This document shows positions 5,280 through 24,124 of a stretch of 24,124 nucleotides of DNA, in pieces. The translations under genes and the position numbers were made by a program. Numbering within the stretch: the first letter of the stretch is position 1; every line of letters begins with the position of its first letter. The notes under the pieces are model-generated. The model was not told the DNA's origin. It saw only the letters and a program-made list of their open reading frames with translations, and made no database searches. This DNA comes from a virus: positions 1 through 24,124 of IMG/VR virus record IMGVR_UViG_3300003321_000505; one strand, given 5' to 3'.

Positions 5280-5938
5280 TAGCAAATAATGTAAACGTAA
5301 ACCCCAAGCGCGGGCGGGATGATGTCGAAAGGATCAGCATCATCCTTGAGTTTCACGTTGGTTGGTCCCTGAGTCCCGAGGCTCCCCGCATCACCGAATG
5401 TGGTCCCGTTTATCTCGAGCGTCTCAATCGATACCCTGACCCCTGTCTGCGCATCCCCATCGTCCTCAGTAATGGTGACGTCCAGTGAACCCTGGTTTGT
5501 CGGGCCTAGCGTTACCTGGTCGGCCCCCAAAGCTGTTCCGACCGACACCGTGCCGGCATTGTCGAACGTGCCGATCCCGACCGGGAATTTTGCGCGAAAA
5601 TCCGGCAGCTTGAAATTGCCGGCGCTCGCGGTCCCATACGTCGCCCCGATGGCCGCATAGAGGTCCGGATAGGTTGCCTGTGCCACTTGTCGCCCGTCGC
5701 AAAGGAGTCGCGTGCCGTCCTCGGTTTGGGTACACCCCGAGAAGATGAAGTCCCCCGGCCGCGCGACTTGGTTCACAAAAGCCTTTGTCGGGTTGCCGGA
5801 GCTATCGAACAAATAGTTCATCACCTTCCAAATCAGAACCGGCAATTTAAGAAGTGTGTTTACAAAATTCGAGCAAAGCGAGGAGCTTGGATCACTTATA
5901 CACGCTTTGAACTCCGCGGGAGTTACGGGGCTTGACAT
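5279..5938 (-). CDS. Phage tail collar domain protein
   Basis: A 219-aa protein with a tail-collar (microcystin-dependent-protein-like) domain at about res 61-122. Landmarks are GDFIFSGCTQTEDGTRLLCD, YPDLYAAIGATYG and GNFKLPDFRAKFPVGIG, which match the family's 'GWllCdGq...i....yp.Ly..iG..yG......F.lPdlrgr.p.G.g'. The C-terminus is beta-rich and ends with DIIPPALGVYVYIIC, close to the 'n..Pp...l.yiIk' end of collar fibres. The first 50 residues carry a hydrophobic stretch (FVNTLLKLPVLIWKVMNYLF). The start follows a clear AAAGGA ribosome site 4 nt upstream. The GIY-YIG gene overlaps its first 16 nt. It likely forms a short tail fibre or receptor-contacting piece. Confidence 0.8.
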   Translation of the reverse strand: MSSPVTPAEFKACISDPSSSLCSNFVNTLLKLPVLIWKVMNYLFDSSGNPTKAFVNQVARPGDFIFSGCTQTEDGTRLLCDGRQVAQATYPDLYAAIGATYGTASAGNFKLPDFRAKFPVGIGTFDNAGTVSVGTALGADQVTLGPTNQGSLDVTITEDDGDAQTGVRVSIETLEINGTTFGDAGSLGTQGPTNVKLKDDADPFDIIPPALGVYVYIIC

Positions 5939-6489
5939 GATTCCTTTCTCTTACCCCACGCTCGGACCATTGCCTCGACGTGAGATTGGCTTTTGGGTTT
6001 GCGGTTTGACTCTGAAATCTTACGCCTCGTCTCGGCGCTGACCGGTCTGCCCACGAGTCCCCTCCCTATATTGCGCCGGTGCTCCACGGTCAGTCTCTTG
6101 CCTGAGTGAGCTATCGAGATTTTGGATTTTGTCGCTTCGCTCAGCTTTTTCCCCTTTTTAGAGTTGGCTATTTTTTCTCGTGTACGCTCGGTGAGAGCTC
6201 CTCCGGAACCGACATTATAGCCATTTGGGACCAAGCTTCGTTCGCTGTTAATCCAAAATTCTTCTCTGGCGTTGACGTTAGATGGTGAAAGTCCCGACTC
6301 AAGGACGTCCACACGAAAATTTTCCCATCCGTACTTTCGGATAGCACGGCAAACGATCATGCTGCATCCGTTTTTTGCAGAGGATCGGTGTGTTATTATT
6401 CTGCGGTCCACTGTGCAGATGGTCTGCCCTACGTATTTCCTGCCGTTAAGCAGGTTCGTGATCCGATAGATCGTGTAAAGGCTGGCCAT
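5923..6489 (-). CDS. GIY-YIG homing endonuclease with NUMOD3-like repeats
   Basis: A 188-aa free-standing GIY-YIG endonuclease. The catalytic module has YTIYRI (res 5-10) and KYVGQT (18-23) as the two halves of the signature, Arg29 and His34, KYGWENF (53-58), Glu76/Glu77 in NAREEFWI as the likely metal-binding acid, and NGYNVGSGG (89-97). After that come lysine-rich repeats of the NUMOD3 type (KIANSKKGKKLSE, KISIAHSGKRLT, RRNIGRGLVGRPVS, RRKISESNRKPKS) that contact the target DNA. It sits 3 nt after the LamG-like gene and overlaps the collar gene start by 16 nt. Its DNA is visibly more AT-rich than its neighbours, which fits recent acquisition. Confidence 0.9.
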   Translation of the reverse strand: MASLYTIYRITNLLNGRKYVGQTICTVDRRIITHRSSAKNGCSMIVCRAIRKYGWENFRVDVLESGLSPSNVNAREEFWINSERSLVPNGYNVGSGGALTERTREKIANSKKGKKLSEATKSKISIAHSGKRLTVEHRRNIGRGLVGRPVSAETRRKISESNRKPKSQSHVEAMVRAWGKRKESCQAP

Positions 6490-6492
6490 CGG

Positions 6493-7428
6493 TTAAAATG
6501 CGATTCCCCACAAGTTCGCGAGATATCTCCGAACCTGGGCCCGCTCATCGTTAGTTAGCCGTCTGCTCCAAAGGTAAAGGCCCGCGATATTGCAATGGGT
6601 GTAATTGAACGATCCGCCAAGCCCGTAATTGATTGCCCCGCCGAGGGTGTAAGTGGTCTCGAGCGTGCCCCTGGATCGAAACGTGTATTGCCCCATCCCG
6701 AACGAGGCAAAATTATTCGAATTCATCCAGGCCTTGAATGAGCTCCCGTCCGCCGCTGCCGCCAGGTTGTAAGCGGCAAATCCGGCTGATGGGTCAATAG
6801 GGCTGACTCCCAAGTCAAGATTGCCAGTCATCAGAGTTTGGTCGGTTCCGTTGGCAAAGGGCTCCATCCAATGGCCCGTTGTGCCGACGCCGGCAAAGAT
6901 GGATCCGACTGGCTGGTTGGGTGAGTTGCTGACCCAAATAAAAAACGGGCTGAAAATGAAAATGTTGGCTGTGCGTTGATAGCTGAAAACCGAGCCCTGA
7001 CCCGCGGGCGGTGGATTGGCGTCCAGCTTGTAGATTACGATGATCTCCAGGCCGGTCAGCCCAGAGGGAGGAATGAAGAGGCCCGCGGAACTTACCAAAA
7101 CCTGGTTGCCTCCGAACCGCACCGTCGCATGCCCGTTGAGCTTTCGGGTCTGGTCGACCGTCGGGGAGATGTCCGATCCACTGATGCCGCCAGCATTCCC
7201 GACTCCGTGCGTCATGTGATGCAGCAGACCCGTCTTGTCGGTCCACTGGTGGATATCGGTCCCGTCGCCGCTGCCGTCAAAATCGGAGCTCTCGAGCCAT
7301 TGGATGAGGTCCTCAGTAACAAGGCTGTCGGCGTCATTGTCCCCGCTGAGCTCAGCCCTGGAGATAACGGAGGACGCCCGTACGATCGGGAAAGTTATGG
7401 GCTCGGACTTCTCATCGACGATAATCAT
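6493..7428 (-). CDS. LamG / concanavalin A-like domain structural protein
   Basis: A 311-aa protein with a LamG-like jelly-roll. After a 40-aa leader comes LIQWLESSDFDGSGDGTDIHQW, matching the 'l..WLdasd....dGt.v..W.D.sG' entry of this fold, then LNGHATVRFGGNQVLVSS. The exit is NIAGLYLWSRRLTNDERAQV and RRYLANLWGI, the usual 'iaEl.iynraLs..er..v..YL..kwgi' end. Such domains bind sugars or proteins. Its ATG overlaps the stop of the adaptor fusion gene by 4 nt (ATGA). Because it lies in the tail block, a receptor-binding or decoration role is inferred. No glycosidase active site is apparent. Confidence 0.7.
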   Translation of the reverse strand: MIIVDEKSEPITFPIVRASSVISRAELSGDNDADSLVTEDLIQWLESSDFDGSGDGTDIHQWTDKTGLLHHMTHGVGNAGGISGSDISPTVDQTRKLNGHATVRFGGNQVLVSSAGLFIPPSGLTGLEIIVIYKLDANPPPAGQGSVFSYQRTANIFIFSPFFIWVSNSPNQPVGSIFAGVGTTGHWMEPFANGTDQTLMTGNLDLGVSPIDPSAGFAAYNLAAAADGSSFKAWMNSNNFASFGMGQYTFRSRGTLETTYTLGGAINYGLGGSFNYTHCNIAGLYLWSRRLTNDERAQVRRYLANLWGIAF

Positions 7429-9008
7429 TTGCTCAGCTCAAGCGTGTCGATCAGTTCGCCGTCTTTGGTCCAGAACTCCGCTACGAAGCTGGTGTCTTTG
7501 GCCGTCATGCGCAGAGCTCCGGCCTTGGCTGCGTAGCTGCTCTGAGTCTCTGCCGAGGCGTAAATGCCCAACGGCTGGAACGGACCGAGTCCTCCCAGGC
7601 CATCGTTAATCACCGGCAGACCGGAAATGTCGAGCCGCTCGTAGTTCAGCGCCTGGCTGCAAATGACCAAGTCCGCGCCCCACGTCTTGAACGGCCATTG
7701 CAAATTCGCGTCGCTGTAGAGCGAACCATAGGGGGCCTTGTCCATCACCACGATTTTCCAGATCGCCGCTGATGCTGCGAGGCCCGCCTGGAGCCAAAGT
7801 CCTTGCGTGCTACCGGCGGTGATGCCGTCGGGCTCGCTCGAGCTCGTATCCAGCACGAAAAATTGACAGTCCCCGATTGTGGCCGAGTAGTACCGCTTGT
7901 TGCCGCCAAGGGGGAAGTAGCCTTTGAACGTGGTCAGGGCGTCGAGGTCCCAATCGAATTGCGTCGGTATGGCCCAAAGCGCATTGCCATCGTCGGACCC
8001 GTCCCCTTTGTCTCCGCTGTAGGGGTCAAGGTAATCGTGGAATTGGTCGCCCGCGGTCGCGTCGTAGTCGGTCAGGACGTGATTGATCCAGCCAGCTCCA
8101 AAGATGGCCGATGGTCCCCAGTTCCGGACGAGCCTGCCGACGTCGTCGAGATCCTCGCCCGTGGTCGATCCGTTGCCCAGGTGTGCCAGGACCAAATCGG
8201 TAACGCCGGCAATGAAGGCATCGTCGCTGATTTCCGCGCAGAGCCGGTTTCGCTCGTTGTGCTGCGGGAACTCGTCGCGCGTCTTGGTCCGCTCTCGGCA
8301 CTCGTGGATGAGGTCTCCGAGCGACTCGTCGAAAAGTCCGTTATGGCTAACGGGATTATGAAACGCGAGGGCCTCCTGCATGGAGCCGTAATCCCGCTCG
8401 TGCGCATACTGGACGAACAGCTTGACCGCCGCTCGGTACATCACCTCCGGATTGATGAGATCGTTGTCCTCCCAATTGGTTTTGATGCCCTTCCACTCGA
8501 TGACTACCAACTCATTGCTCTGGATCCAGGGAGCAATGTAAATGTTGTTCTGGTAAACCGCCCAAATCGCCGTACGAGCTCGGCCGTACAGGCTGTCATT
8601 GTCCGCGCTTGCGTAGCCGAAGCCCACCGGTAGCTTGCCGGCCTTGGTGAAGTCGGGCAGGGGCGAAAGATACAGGTTGCGGGCCCAGGATTCGGGCTCC
8701 GGCCATTGGCGTTGCCGGACGTAAACGGGGTCCGTGAAATTTTCGTTAGCGACGGTAAAAACCCTCTGAACAATACCGCGCGGGGCGGGGATGACAGTCA
8801 TCCCGTTTTTGTAGAAGGTCTTTTCGAACTTGATGACGTTGACGTTGTCCTCCCGCTCGCAAATCACCCACTTGGCGATCTGCGCAAACGCCTCTTGAAA
8901 GTGAGCGTTATGGGCGTTGACGAGGTTTTCCGGCTCGCCGCTGGCCCAAATTTGAGCCCGAATGTCAGCCTTGAGCTGGCCTACGGTTATTGTTTTGTCG
9001 CGGGACAT
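7425..9008 (-). CDS. Tail adaptor-like protein fused to a degenerate calcineurin-like phosphatase
   Basis: A 527-aa two-part protein. Res 1-255 look like a head-to-tail adaptor (position of T7 gp11): helical start, then FYKNGMTVIPAPRGIVQRVF, NIYIAPWIQSNELVVIEWKG, and a helical PEVMYRAAVKLFVQYAHERD. Res 265-527 follow a secreted-type metallophosphoesterase: VGRLVRNW, FHDYLDPYSGDKGDGS, GNKRYYSATIGDCQFFVLDT, SEPDGITAGSTQGLWLQAGL, LQWPFKTWGADLVI, NYERLDISGLPVINDGLGG and EFWTKDGELIDTLELSK. The catalytic signatures are altered: GD-Y-G to LGNG (277-280), GDNNY to GAGWI (304-308), GNHDW to TQFDW (349-353), HHxPY to DKAPY (423-427) and GHDHTYER to SQALNYER (451-458). Enzyme activity is therefore unlikely. 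The start overlaps the 178-aa gene by 44 nt and is the only ATG. The family patterns quoted are from memory. Confidence 0.75.
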   Translation of the reverse strand: MSRDKTITVGQLKADIRAQIWASGEPENLVNAHNAHFQEAFAQIAKWVICEREDNVNVIKFEKTFYKNGMTVIPAPRGIVQRVFTVANENFTDPVYVRQRQWPEPESWARNLYLSPLPDFTKAGKLPVGFGYASADNDSLYGRARTAIWAVYQNNIYIAPWIQSNELVVIEWKGIKTNWEDNDLINPEVMYRAAVKLFVQYAHERDYGSMQEALAFHNPVSHNGLFDESLGDLIHECRERTKTRDEFPQHNERNRLCAEISDDAFIAGVTDLVLAHLGNGSTTGEDLDDVGRLVRNWGPSAIFGAGWINHVLTDYDATAGDQFHDYLDPYSGDKGDGSDDGNALWAIPTQFDWDLDALTTFKGYFPLGGNKRYYSATIGDCQFFVLDTSSSEPDGITAGSTQGLWLQAGLAASAAIWKIVVMDKAPYGSLYSDANLQWPFKTWGADLVICSQALNYERLDISGLPVINDGLGGLGPFQPLGIYASAETQSSYAAKAGALRMTAKDTSFVAEFWTKDGELIDTLELSK

Positions 9009-16485: not shown

Positions 16486-16809
16486 TCAGCTAACGGAGCG
16501 AGTCGAGCCCCGGTAAGCTTCGTCGGTTTGTCTCTCTTTCATGTACTCGAGCGGCGAGGTCTTGGTCGGTCGCTTGGCTGAGCCGCCTTGAGCCTTGGGC
16601 GCGTTGTGCCGCTTGATCTCCATGACATGAAAATCATGCGTCAGTGGCATGGTGCGCTCGCCTTTGGCGTTACCCCCGCCAGGCATCTCAGGCATATCCT
16701 TTGGCTCGGGCACTTTCTTGACCGTAACGACTGCGGTGTCGTTGTCGCCCATGGCCGCAACCTCCGGGTGATGCGCTGGAAGAGTGATCCGATGCAATGG
16801 TTTGCTCAT
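16486..16809 (-). CDS. Small protein of unknown function, first gene of the left arm
   Basis: A 107-aa protein with no recognised domain. It starts MSKPLHRITLPAHHPEVAAM and has a beta-like segment (NDTAVVTVKKVPEPKDMPEM), a Gly-rich turn, then HDFHVMEIKRHN and a basic, disordered end. I chose the ATG at 16809 because the frame stays open to 17010 only by running into the terminase gene on the other strand. An ATG at 16752 (MGDNDTAV) is possible. Its stop is 1 nt from the portal start, so it is cotranscribed. It could be a small head protein or a terminase partner, but nothing in the sequence proves it. Confidence 0.5.
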   Translation of the reverse strand: MSKPLHRITLPAHHPEVAAMGDNDTAVVTVKKVPEPKDMPEMPGGGNAKGERTMPLTHDFHVMEIKRHNAPKAQGGSAKRPTKTSPLEYMKERQTDEAYRGSTRSVS

Positions 16810-16863
16810 ATCGAGGTTGGCTTTAGCGTTGAGCTGGGGGACTTGCAAGTATAAAAGCAGGCC
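16810..16863. promoter_or_regulatory. Divergent intergenic region between left arm and terminase
   Basis: This 54-nt gap separates the minus-strand left arm from the plus-strand terminase gene. An AT-rich core, AGTATAAAA at 16848-16856, can be read as TATACT on the minus strand (about 39 nt before the ATG at 16809) or TATAAA on the plus strand with TTGAGC 15 nt upstream. The minus-strand -35 is poor, and the plus -10 sits only 8 nt from the ATG. A divergent promoter is plausible but weakly supported. Confidence 0.3.
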
Positions 16864-18426
16864 ATGCCGCTCGATACACACGGTCACTGGTATCCGAATT
16901 TGTTCGGGAGACAGCTCGAGGTTTTCAATAATTTCTGCCGCGCTCTGCTGGTTTGTGGACCGCGAAAAAGCGGCAAAACCTGGGCTGTTCTGCATAAGAT
17001 CGCCCGCCATCTTTGGGAGACAAAGGGCGCTCGAGTAGCGATGTTTTCCCGCACGCTGAAAAATTCAAAGGAGGGCGGGACTTGGTCCGATTTGCACACG
17101 ATTGTTTTGCCCGAATGGATCAACGCCAAGATCGGTTTCAAGTACACAACCAAGGGCGCTGAAGGGAAGCCTGGGCCCAAAGTCGACGGGCAGACGCGAA
17201 CCCCCTACTTCCGAATCCGCAACGCGCACGGGGGCGAGTCCGAGCTTATGCTCTTCTCTCTGGATTACGATCCGGACATTGAAGCCAAGCTAAAGGAACA
17301 GCGTTTTAGCATGATTTACTTTTCGGAGCTCTCCAAATTCAAGGATCGCCGGATCCTATCGGTGGCGCTCCCGTCACTCCGCATGCCTCACTTGAAAATG
17401 GATGAGCAGCAATGGATCGCGGACACCAATCCGGGCGAGGAGGGTGACGCCTCGTGGATCTACGAAGTGTGGTACGTCGAGCGCATCCAGACCTATCAGC
17501 AGTATTTCGACCGCAACAAAGAACGGGGGCGGCCGTGTTTGCCCGAGCAGCTCTTTTACACGTTCCAGAAGGGGCTCGGGCTCATCGAAATCAAGCCCGA
17601 GGAAAACCCGTTTCTCGATCCGGCTGAGCTCGACGAGCTCAAGGCCACTTACTCATATGACGAGGGACTTTATGAGCGGTACGTCAATGGCAAATGGGTC
17701 TACGGGGAAGGGGACGCATCCATCCATTTCAAGGGTAAGTTTCACCCGCTCCGCCACGTGGTTGGGGGAATTGAGTCACCGGATCAAAAGGACCACGTTT
17801 ACGCCAATCCCCATCCCAATAGCTTCGAGCTGATCACCGGATGGGACCTTGGCGACACAAATCACGCCGCGGTGATCCTTGATCGCGTGTACATCGGAGG
17901 CAAGAGCCACTACATCGTTTTGGACGAGCTCGAGGTCTTGGGCGAAGAGGTGAGCAATGAGGATTTTACCGAGGAATTCATGGGGCTCATTGTCAACCTC
18001 GAGGAGACCGCCGGCAAAAAGTTCGGCCTGGACCGCTCTTGGTCGGACCGGTCGGCTCTCGAGAAATATTCCGCCAGCGGTGACACCTACGCATACCTCC
18101 AAGTCTACGCAGCCAGCAACAAGCGGATTTACCTCCGGGCCTGTCCCAAGCCAGCCGGCTCAGTGCGCACGCGCGTCCAGCTCGTGAAATCACTCCTTCA
18201 CAACAACCGCCTGCATATCTCGGCTCACTGCAAAGGGGTCATCCGAATGATGAAGGAGCTAAAGAAGGGGGCGGGGAAACTCGACTTTGTGGCTCAGGAT
18301 GAGAACAAGCACATTTTTGACGCGCTCACGTACGCCCTGCTGATGGAGTGCGCGGAGGAGCTCGAACTCATGCCCGCGGTGACAGAGGGGCCCAGGGATA
18401 GCATTGCTCTGAGTATCCGGCTTTAG
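16864..18426 (+). CDS. terL: Terminase large subunit
   Basis: A 520-aa DNA-packaging motor that cuts concatemers and pumps DNA into the prohead. The ATPase half has Walker A GPRKSGKT (32-39), Walker B MIYFSEL ending in catalytic Glu155 (150-156), and coupling motif ADTNPGEEG (186-194). The nuclease half has GWDLGDTNHAAVIL with Asp328, the later DRSWSDRSALEKY (390-402) and HIFDALTYAL with Asp486, the acidic triad region. Length is normal for TerL. It is the only plus-strand gene and is convergent with the HNH-AP2 gene that ends at 18514. The 87-nt gap 18427-18513 holds only small inverted repeats (for example CGTGA-TCG-TCACG) and no clear terminator. No partner small subunit is obvious. Confidence 0.92.
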   Translation: MPLDTHGHWYPNLFGRQLEVFNNFCRALLVCGPRKSGKTWAVLHKIARHLWETKGARVAMFSRTLKNSKEGGTWSDLHTIVLPEWINAKIGFKYTTKGAEGKPGPKVDGQTRTPYFRIRNAHGGESELMLFSLDYDPDIEAKLKEQRFSMIYFSELSKFKDRRILSVALPSLRMPHLKMDEQQWIADTNPGEEGDASWIYEVWYVERIQTYQQYFDRNKERGRPCLPEQLFYTFQKGLGLIEIKPEENPFLDPAELDELKATYSYDEGLYERYVNGKWVYGEGDASIHFKGKFHPLRHVVGGIESPDQKDHVYANPHPNSFELITGWDLGDTNHAAVILDRVYIGGKSHYIVLDELEVLGEEVSNEDFTEEFMGLIVNLEETAGKKFGLDRSWSDRSALEKYSASGDTYAYLQVYAASNKRIYLRACPKPAGSVRTRVQLVKSLLHNNRLHISAHCKGVIRMMKELKKGAGKLDFVAQDENKHIFDALTYALLMECAEELELMPAVTEGPRDSIALSIRL

Positions 18427-18513: not shown

Positions 18514-18996
18514 TCACGCGGACCGCTCCCAAAAGTTAGGATTAGCGAATTCCCCAAATTGTTCAAGAGCTGCTGAATCGTAGGCCATTGCGGCCTCTTC
18601 TTCCGTAGCGAACCTTCCGATTATTCGTCCCTTTCCGAAAACCTTTATTTGCGCCCTCCACTTTCCCCTGGCCGCGTCCCACGTAACTCCCTTGAACGGG
18701 CTCGTGCATCCTTCTCTCTTTCGAGAGTTGGCCTGCTGTTGGGAATGGGTTGCGCCCCTTAAATTGCCTCTTCTGTTGTTCAACCCGTCGCGGTCCCGGT
18801 GATCGACCTGACCGCGTGAATGGAGAATTTCCTTGTGCATTAGGACGGTTTGGCATTTGCCGTCTTTCCAAAATGTTCTAACGGCGTACCACGTGCGCCT
18901 GACCTTTTGCGCCTGCCATTTCCATTGGGATAGCCATTCGAAGTCCGCGTCGTCAACAACGGCAGATTTACCTTGGGTCAAAGGTATTAGCTCCAC
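18514..18996 (-). CDS. HNH-AP2 homing endonuclease
   Basis: A 160-aa endonuclease. It opens with ELIPLTQGKSAVVDDADFEW, carries the MHKEIL element (53-58) and the HNH core VDHRDRDGLNNRRGNLR (64-80), and ends with an AP2 domain (res 99-154: SPFKGVTWDAARGKWRAQI, EEAAMAYDSAALEQFGEFAN). I chose the GTG at 18996. It follows AGAGG at good spacing, overlaps the preceding stop by only 10 nt, and gives the family's usual N-terminus; the longer reading to 19137 lies inside the regulator gene. Unlike its relative at 46-579, it retains the MHK histidine. It is the last gene of the right arm and converges on the terminase gene. Confidence 0.85.
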   Translation of the reverse strand: MELIPLTQGKSAVVDDADFEWLSQWKWQAQKVRRTWYAVRTFWKDGKCQTVLMHKEILHSRGQVDHRDRDGLNNRRGNLRGATHSQQQANSRKREGCTSPFKGVTWDAARGKWRAQIKVFGKGRIIGRFATEEEAAMAYDSAALEQFGEFANPNFWERSA

Positions 18997-19331
18997 GATG
19001 GCCTCTGCAAATCTTCGATTAGACGCTTGTACATTCGTCGCTGTGATGGGCTGCTCCTCCTCATAAACTCCATTTTTCCCTGGCGCACAAGTCGATTGTC
19101 CCGACGCTCGTGTGGTGCCATGAGGTTTACCCCGCAACCGGTCGCAAATGCCTGGATGGTCTCGAGCTTCACCTTATTCCAGTTTCGGAGCTGGGATATC
19201 TTGTTGACCATCGCCCGCGAGAGCCCGGAGGCCATTGCGATATCGGCATTGGACAACGGATGGGTGCCGCGCCGAGCCAGGAGCCGGCATCGGGCGGGGG
19301 GGAAGCGGTTTACGAAATCCAGCAGCGTCAC
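18987..19331 (-). CDS. Cro/XRE-like helix-turn-helix regulator
   Basis: A 114-aa DNA-binding protein. The helix-turn-helix is at about res 26-70: PLSNADIAMASGLSRAMVNK, ISQLRNWNKVKLETIQAFAT, GCGVNL. This is the pattern of short phage/bacterial regulators that read 'ls..dIa.asGls...v..is...sW..v.l.ti..f..aCgvdl'. A basic tail follows (RRDNRLVRQGKMEFMRRSSP). I chose the GTG at 19331 because it overlaps the previous stop as GTGA, the local rule; a GTG at 19361 is possible. It lies between a hydrophobic 119-aa protein and the HNH-AP2 gene. It may control phage late or lysis genes, but no operator is visible. Confidence 0.65.
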   Translation of the reverse strand: MTLLDFVNRFPPARCRLLARRGTHPLSNADIAMASGLSRAMVNKISQLRNWNKVKLETIQAFATGCGVNLMAPHERRDNRLVRQGKMEFMRRSSPSQRRMYKRLIEDLQRPSWS

Positions 19332-22229: not shown

Positions 22230-24124
22230 TTATCGGTATCCGCCTCCAAGGGCCTGCCTGAGCGTCTGCACTCGGTTGTACTCATTTTGCCCGTCGCTCG
22301 TGCTTAACCCCTGGCGAAAACTGGTGTAGGAAATCGTGCTGGCGCTCGGCTCGTAGTCCGCGCTGATCGTCGGAATGTTGGAGGCGAAAACATCCACCGT
22401 TCCATTCAAATAAGTTACGGTCCTTGTCGTGCTGTTGTTCCCGATCTGAGCCCAGGCCGATCCCGAATTGGCGAAGAATAGTCGATGATCCGTGCTGCTC
22501 ACGCGGTTTCCGCTATAGAACCCATTGCCCGGAGAAGGATGCACGCTCACGCCCGATGGACTTTGGCCAAGTCCTGAGTTGGCTGCTCCGGAGGCAATGT
22601 CCGAGGCGTTCATCTGCAAGCCAAAACTGGCATCAGTCGCAACGACATAGCTTCCGCAATCCCGGTATGCACCCGAGGTAGTTGCGTACCCGTAGAGCGA
22701 AATTCCAGCGTTGTCCACGCTCACGCCAGTCGAGGCGTTGAAGCCGGTGTCGAGGTATTTGTTCGATCCGTTTCCGGTCAGGCCGTTCACACTGAGATCG
22801 CCGGAGACGAAGTTATGATTTACCCAAAGCACGCTCCCCGATCCAGGCAGGAGCGGGGTGAGAGCTGCGGTCAAACTGTCAGGGACGTAAGTATTAACGA
22901 CTACTTCTTTGGAGCTAAGTCCATCGGTTACCAGTCCATTCCAGAATTGATCCTGTGCCCAAATCGTATTCGAGGAAAGCACGGACGCGCCATTGACCGC
23001 GCATTGCACAACCCAGTTGCTTACGGTTGTGGTTGTGACCGTCGCAAGCTGGATGGAGGAGGATCCATACGTGCGTCCGGAAAGTGTCGCGAAACATTGG
23101 TAGGTCCCGAAGTCGGAGAGAGCGGCAGTCCCGACCGTGTACGAGCTTTGGGTAGCGTTAGCGATGTTGACCCCGTTTTTCTGCCACTGGTAGGAAGGCG
23201 ATCCGGCGGCAGGGGCGTAGAGGGTTTTGCTATTGCCGATGAGGACCACACTGTTCGTTATGTCGGTAGTGAATGGCTTAGCTGCCCCGCCTCCCTTCGT
23301 CGTAAGGAAGTTTTCGACAAGCCAAAAATAATTAGAGGAGTCAGCCGCGCTGAAGCTTGACGGAGCGTACGAGTAATAGGAAATGGTGTTGGTCGTCAGT
23401 CCTTGTATGCCGGCATTGCGCTCCGAGATGGCAAACAGAGTGACCGCCAAGTTAAAATCTGGACTCGCTTTCGTGTTTGCCGTTGTGCCCTGAGCATATA
23501 GTCCGTGCGCGAGCGTGGAGCTTGCGATATAGACGTCGAGCTCGGTCGAATTAACCCTCGTGGTTGTCATGTACCCGGGCACAGCCGTATTGGTGAATAC
23601 TTGAGACGCACCCGTGCCAAATGCTCCGCCCTCGCCAACTCCGCTGTAACCTGCGGTCCCAAAGATCCCGTTATTCGGAGTCGCAAAGTCATCGTAGCCC
23701 CCAAAGCAAAATTTACCCGCCTCCACTCCCGCGGTGTACATGTAGATCGTCTGAGCCGCGCTATTGTAGCTTGGGGACTCGTCCGAAAGTCCAGGATGAC
23801 CATTGACCCCAGGGTTCAGGTACTTCGTGCTCCCGTCTCCCTTCATGCCGTTGATGCTCACGTCCGCATCGACAAAGTTGTTGTTCATGTTGGCCACGGG
23901 ATTGAAGAAAATGAAGGTGTTGCCTCCGTTTATCTGCCACATTCCCTTGATGGGCGTCAGGGCATCTTTGAGCGTGGTTCCACCCAGGGCGAGGATCATC
24001 GGGACTTTACTCCATAGGTTGGTCGTGACCATGCCGTCGACGAAGTTGACAACCGCGTTCGAGTTTGCGGATGATATATTTGTGCCGCCCGCCTGAACGA
24101 TGGCCCAGTTGTAGGTGTACTCCC
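22230..24124 (-). CDS. LamG-like / Ig-like / LamG-like repeat protein, 5' end outside window
   Basis: The frame is open from the window edge to the stop at 22230, at least 630 codons. The ATG at 24032 is internal: the codons upstream read YTYNWAIVQAGGTNI, matching the NWVVQCAVNGAS that opens the second repeat. Two copies of a beta-rich, ConA/LamG-like domain are visible. Numbered from 24032, copy 1 reaches about res 250 and copy 2 spans 339-600. Paired landmarks are NGMKGDGSTKYLNPG (61-75) with NGLTGNGSNKYLDTG (416-430). Between them is an Ig-like domain (about 261-333; YQWQKNGVNIANATQSSYTV, SDFGTYQCFA). Such proteins bind surfaces or glycans, so a fibre or adhesin role is likely. It is followed by small membrane-protein genes. 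Confidence 0.7.
   Translation of the reverse strand, partial: EYTYNWAIVQAGGTNISSANSNAVVNFVDGMVTTNLWSKVPMILALGGTTLKDALTPIKGMWQINGGNTFIFFNPVANMNNNFVDADVSINGMKGDGSTKYLNPGVNGHPGLSDESPSYNSAAQTIYMYTAGVEAGKFCFGGYDDFATPNNGIFGTAGYSGVGEGGAFGTGASQVFTNTAVPGYMTTTRVNSTELDVYIASSTLAHGLYAQGTTANTKASPDFNLAVTLFAISERNAGIQGLTTNTISYYSYAPSSFSAADSSNYFWLVENFLTTKGGGAAKPFTTDITNSVVLIGNSKTLYAPAAGSPSYQWQKNGVNIANATQSSYTVGTAALSDFGTYQCFATLSGRTYGSSSIQLATVTTTTVSNWVVQCAVNGASVLSSNTIWAQDQFWNGLVTDGLSSKEVVVNTYVPDSLTAALTPLLPGSGSVLWVNHNFVSGDLSVNGLTGNGSNKYLDTGFNASTGVSVDNAGISLYGYATTSGAYRDCGSYVVATDASFGLQMNASDIASGAANSGLGQSPSGVSVHPSPGNGFYSGNRVSSTDHRLFFANSGSAWAQIGNNSTTRTVTYLNGTVDVFASNIPTISADYEPSASTISYTSFRQGLSTSDGQNEYNRVQTLRQALGGGYR

Follow-up and report, generated by a model that had tools for sequence, protein, structure and literature searches.

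The window analysed here is a complete virus record, linear and 24,124 bases long, and at one end of it lies an adhesin-like open reading frame (ORF) of at least 630 amino acids on the minus strand (22230–24122), which stays open to the contig edge and has its 5' end beyond it. Two concanavalin A-like modules, A (residues 1–279; 23286–24122, minus strand) and B (residues 368–630; 22233–23021, minus strand), flank an Ig-like domain (residues 280–367; 23022–23285, minus strand), A being the more diverged of the two copies. An earlier sequence-only reading of this stretch had pointed to landmarks common to the halves, and these were confirmed: NW occurs at residues 5–6 and 369–370, each half has a KYL motif, and GGG closes each of them, while the Ig signature, YQWQKNG and DFGTYQC, is found between the halves. 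A motif search placed the signature motif of A, GDGSTKYLNPG, at residue 95 (23808–23840, minus strand) and that of B, GNGSNKYLDTG, at residue 450 (22743–22775, minus strand). The ATG at 24032, which had been taken to lie inside the first repeat, does so: its codon is residue 31, and homology to the module, as aligned with the family profile described below, already begins at residue 5, so that the true start of the ORF lies beyond the contig edge.

Self-alignment bore out the proposed relationship of the halves. A and B are homologous, with 80 of 285 BLASTP columns identical (28%, E 2e-14), and their local alignment score of 202 lies 18 standard deviations above that of shuffled sequences (47.0 ± 8.5; none of 1000 shuffles scored as high). 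At the DNA level a single 15-nt direct repeat pair is all that remains of the repetition, which indicates that the relation is old.

The halves had also been called LamG-like, and a concanavalin A-like jelly roll was indeed predicted for both. The AlphaFold2 model of B reached a pLDDT of 84.5 and a pTM of 0.87, and that of A a pLDDT of 74.2 and a pTM of 0.80 with low-confidence loops; helices at 2–10, 18–33 and 51–55 and a C-terminal helix coincide between the two models, which are not independent of each other because the modelling alignment of each half contained the other. The 14 best matches among predicted viral structures were common to A and B (14 of 14) and include uncultured-phage proteins labelled "Ig-like domain-containing protein" and "Collagen triple helix repeat". 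The highest VIA Z values were 17.8 (B) and 13.8 (A). In the PDB, B matched concanavalin A-like folds, among them CBM40, laminin G domains and, distantly at 9% identity, the cyanopodophage Pan3 tailspike (PDB 9vyh; 282 alignment columns, TM 0.49, E 5e-5). The predicted jelly-roll fold places both halves in the concanavalin A-like lectin/glucanase superfamily; the window protein was not matched by Pfam Laminin_G_3 (PF13385) at a limit of E 0.1.

For the Ig-like domain, the best PHROG match was PHROG_3995, a tail protein (2.8e-12), followed by matches to the Hoc-like PHROG_4069 (1.5e-7) and PHROG_2973 (0.0024). Ig proteins of phage virions in the PDB, 9ncf and 9c2d, were matched at 2.8e-23 and 9.2e-18, which are whole-chain E-values spanning several Ig copies, and Pfam Ig_3 was matched at 3.6e-5 with 24.6 bits, under the curated cut-off of 30. 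In the published account of phage Sf14, 9c2d is the capsid map of that phage, and its gp20, described as Hoc-like, contains three Ig-like domains (PMC11821841). Judged by these matches, the window protein carries an Ig domain related to the Ig domains of phage virions; the domain by itself favours neither tail nor head.

The module family

No homologues were found when the whole window protein was searched against viral contigs. In a phage collection 70 records matched it, none over 80% of the query, and in the 20 listed of these 70 the match was confined to the Ig region; the A–B alignment, used as a query, gave no match. Four records reached by way of portal and terminase likewise had no match to the protein, an empty result that carries no weight. 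The module family was reached by scanning a degenerate KYL-motif pattern over the viral contigs, which yielded 49 stretches, and an alignment of B with the modules of loci L043 and L011 served as a second route to family members. The ORFs around the motif stretches have a module of ~270 residues in common. An iterated HMM search drifted into full-length proteins and was dropped, and motif-anchored domains were used instead. The family profile was built from 31 modules of other phages, with zero rows from the window and with those loci excluded in which the domain is cut or interrupted (L013, L016, L019, L023, L028, L031, L032 and L034). This window-free profile matched A over positions 4–271 of 277 (77 bits, 4e-22) and B over positions 2–275 (123 bits, 6e-36), of which only the part outside an 11-residue motif is independent evidence, since the profile loci were chosen by that motif, which they have in common with the window. 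On these profile matches, A and B are full-length members of a phage module family, relatives of PHROG_17104.

Motif loci and later loci together, the window included, provided 86 distinct module-bearing ORFs, a count that is slightly high because exact duplicates were removed but shortened duplicates of one contig stay (e.g., L011 and L063). Of the 78 ORFs in which the 3' end is closed, 74 have the end of the module at most 15 residues from their C terminus. PHROG_17104, annotated as of unknown function, matches 20 of 25 aligned modules (best E 8.2e-83) and has no direct match to the whole window protein (E up to 0.1) or to B (E up to 0.01). Only G81, G86 and Y90 are invariant over the 25 modules, and the region after the motif is far more variable than the motif itself. 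The family profile found nothing reliable among PDB sequences (best E 0.83), and annotated phages contained no match to two typical modules; a module of the L010 type matched seven records there, representing four distinct cyanophages, and a genome scan for the module gave two loci. In the literature searched, no paper was recognised as describing the ~270-residue module.

The segments that precede the module in other phages are of several kinds. Among ten relatives, Pfam identified collagen in L020, Laminin_G_3 in L046, L048, L054 and L013, an atrophied bacterial Ig domain in L008 and a phage tail repeat in L014, the matches in L008, L014 and L054 lying under the curated cut-offs, and no match upstream of the module in L043, L049 and L052. 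Nine further relatives gave invasin-type Big_1 domains in L101 and Ig in L061 and both L098 genes (under the cut-off in L061 and one L098 gene), with no upstream match in L096, L097, L063, L100 and L072. In five more, a tail repeat was found in L065 and a head-fibre-like segment (Phage_head_fibr) in L065 and L073, all under the cut-offs, with no upstream match in L034, L031 and L077. PHROG tail labels were obtained for L014 and L020, and PHROG_10356, labelled "virion structural, head and packaging", matched upstream of the module in L013, L048, L049 and L072. These upstream matches show the module in its usual C-terminal place behind shaft-like segments and make it a virion part by association, with the tail a more likely position than the head.

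The number of modules varies among relatives, as the sequence-only reading had thought worth checking. Two modules per chain occur in the window protein and in the uncultured phages L052, L100 and L034; unlike the window protein, L052 and L100 have linkers shorter than 10 residues and no Ig domain, and L034 has, likewise without Ig, a segment of ~275 residues without a Pfam match between an edge-cut first module and a full second one. Neighbouring module genes are also found, with four in L063, three each in L010 and L018, and two each in L059, L060 and L098. Ig-plus-module units, with the Ig domain immediately before the module as in the window, occur once in L061 and twice in L098, both uncultured phages, and the L061 unit aligns with the window Ig plus B over 403 columns at 37% identity (E 2e-58); these chains differ from the window protein in having one module rather than two, the A half being absent. 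When every module-bearing ORF was scanned with a four-Ig profile, Ig turned up in the window, in L061 (also present as L095) and in the two L098 genes only, so that the order module–Ig–module is seen in the window only, within the sensitivity of that profile, which may overlook Ig domains of greater divergence (one is suspected in L096). With the window Ig as sole query, the Ig domains of L061 and L098, which are divergent, had gone undetected.

An insert of more than 100 residues breaks the module at profile position ~62–87 in L013:1768–4716 (+), L023, L040, L031 and L032, which from sequence points to a recurrent insertion loop for whole domains. L013 is counted here as one interrupted module, though the module scan gives two copies; its insert is overlapped by a sub-threshold CBM_4_9 match. 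As a separate observation, a gene of ~225 codons directly follows the module gene at L043:8271–8960, L061:2912–3622, L098:7665–8336 and L098:11930–12595. The four products are mutually related (BLASTP 7e-41 to 2e-5 in a four-sequence comparison), and they are possibly partners of the adhesin; no such gene was seen beside the window gene, and the L043 copy has no PHROG match.

Origin of the two halves

A tree of 33 modules placed B in a group with L043 and L011 (100/99) to the exclusion of A, which forms a long branch elsewhere, its position unsure and its best scores being to L011 (203) and B (202). The tree did not demonstrate tandem duplication within the gene, proposed from sequence alone, B grouping with modules of other phages, although a clade of A and B was not rejected: constraining the two together cost 12.6 log-likelihood units (p-AU 0.285). 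Placing A with B, L043 and L011 was not rejected either (p-AU 0.404). A different history is that separate module genes recombined or fused, joining A to an Ig–B unit, and we judge this about as likely as not. The clustering of B apart from A argues for joining, as do the Ig-module unit that forms a protein of its own in L061 and L098 and the arrays of adjacent module genes. Against it stand the unrejected A–B clade, the long branch of A with B among its two best scores, and locus L052, the two copies of which are sisters (100/100), indicating that in-gene duplication does occur in the family.

Genomic surroundings

The gene had been described as lying upstream of lysis-type genes rather than with tail genes. 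Several of the small genes downstream of it do encode hydrophobic segments and one is lipoprotein-like, which agrees with that description, but no lysis family was found among the eight small downstream genes with PHROGs or among five of these eight with Pfam, so that "lysis-type" remains an unproven label. An adhesin gene close to lysis genes would not be odd: in Synechococcus phage S-CBS4, two module genes (gp056 and gp057) are separated by 2.5 kb from the annotated tail fibre genes that precede them and by 3.1 kb from an N-acetylmuramidase gene that follows on the opposite strand.

L006 is syntenic with the window, its terminase being 79%, its portal 83% and a neighbouring gene product 67% identical. 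In the same slot, 3.7 kb from the terminase, it encodes a protein of 315 residues with a Laminin_G_3 match (1.6e-11) beside a further gene, and the module profile had no match in L006 or L007; a lectin-fold protein is thus retained in the slot despite a different module. The window terminase (16486–18426) is on the plus strand, with portal, capsid-side and adhesin genes on the minus strand, and its 5' end shares 147 bases with a gene on the minus strand; L006 is arranged likewise.

Other observations concern the structural genes. The gene at 6493–7428, near the tail collar gene, has a weak match to PHROG_10356 (4e-4) and none in Pfam, and is possibly a second lectin-type virion protein. The gene at 7425–9008 encodes a protein of 527 residues within the structural gene run, the C-terminal part of which resembles a PhoD-like phosphatase at E 0.066 only. 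Homing-type endonuclease genes lie amid the structural genes, two of HNH/AP2 type and one of GIY-YIG/NUMOD3 type (46–579, 18514–19137 and 5923–6489).

Probable function and place on the particle

In our view the gene product is probably a modular adhesin, carried on the virion of a tailed phage, that has two lectin-like heads and an Ig spacer and belongs most likely to the tail-fibre or tail-spike type; the modular fibre or adhesin of the sequence-only reading fits the architecture of the relatives. In such a protein, the portion past the contig edge would attach the adhesin to the particle, and the visible portion would present two concanavalin A-type heads kept apart by the Ig-like spacer. 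Being 28% identical, the heads may add avidity for one cell-surface glycan or may bind two different glycans; no binding site was identified in the window protein.

Several lines of evidence favour a tail adhesin. The module is C-terminal (74 of 78) behind collagen, tail repeat, bacterial Ig, Laminin_G_3 and Ig segments; L014 and L020 bear PHROG tail labels; the S-CBS4 module genes are close to tail fibre genes, and L006 has a Laminin_G_3 protein in the slot. The Ig-module unit recurs in L061, and the predicted fold of B matches CBM40, laminin G and the Pan3 tailspike. Evidence on the other side includes the head label of PHROG_10356, the head-fibre matches of L065 and L073, the Hoc-like head protein among the nearest solved Ig structures, and the neighbours of the L043 and L098 modules, which have no tail-family match. 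The proposal that the L043 and L098 modules lie in a window-like tail cluster was rejected, as 9 of 10 neighbour genes had no PHROG match and one was a "virion structural protein", and among window genes searched against these loci the adhesin alone matched. This failure and the weak head-fibre matches lower our confidence in the tail adhesin. Also rejected was a fusion of the L096 module to a window-like tail protein, its best match to a window gene lying at E 0.83 and one other ORF being found in L097.

We tentatively suggest, as a possibility that falls short of an even chance, that the module represents a large, unnamed group of lectin-like tips in phages, whose copy number widens or sharpens host recognition, and that the window protein is a dual-specificity version in which the Ig spacer presents two diverged heads. 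The copy-number part rests on the chains of the window, L034, L052 and L100, the four-gene array of L063 and the fixed-loop inserts of L013, L023/L040, L031 and L032.

It is unlikely, in our judgement, that the protein is instead a Hoc-like head decoration or head fibre, with Ig and lectin-like domains projecting from the capsid and sticking to surfaces rather than acting as a specific receptor-binding protein. The matches to PHROG_4069 and PHROG_2973, the capsid map of Sf14 with its Hoc-like Ig protein (PMC11821841), the "head and packaging" family in four relatives and the sub-threshold Phage_head_fibr matches speak for such a protein, but the strongest Ig match is a tail protein, relatives carry tail repeats and collagen shafts, and the S-CBS4 module genes lie near tail fibre genes. 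PHROG and Pfam family searches found no capsid-binding domain in the visible 630 residues, nor was an attachment domain found there, the N terminus and remaining protein being off the contig. That the domains are purely structural, as fibre spacers or trimerising caps without ligand, seems still more improbable: no conserved binding residues were identified and the invariant G81, G86 and Y90 can be read as positions of a structural turn, but most of the proteins matched in fold bind carbohydrates or receptors and the variability after the motif is what recognition loops would be expected to show, both indirect arguments.

Compared with known systems, a tail adhesin of this kind recalls the tentaclins, phage proteins with a lectin domain and Ig domains that were proposed to function in binding (PMC10743442). 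As outlined there, however, tentaclins are defined by a C-type lectin domain under a diversity-generating retroelement, and this domain is N-terminal, whereas the window halves are predicted to be concanavalin A-like. The Hoc-like gp20 of Sf14 likewise has a related Ig domain on the phage particle, but in the account available from PMC11821841, Hoc-like proteins combine Ig and capsid-binding domains and a lectin-like module is not described. The separate elements are already known or catalogued: phage particles with Ig domains, phage proteins with concanavalin-like domains, and PHROG_17104. The analysis suggests a function, as a lectin-like recognition tip, for an unannotated module in 86 distinct ORFs, the counterpart of a PHROG of unknown function. 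The building blocks of the window protein recur in many environmental phages, and the protein offers a testable case of one phage chain in which two diverged copies of one head flank an Ig spacer. Among the ORFs examined, the module–Ig–module order itself was found in the window alone.
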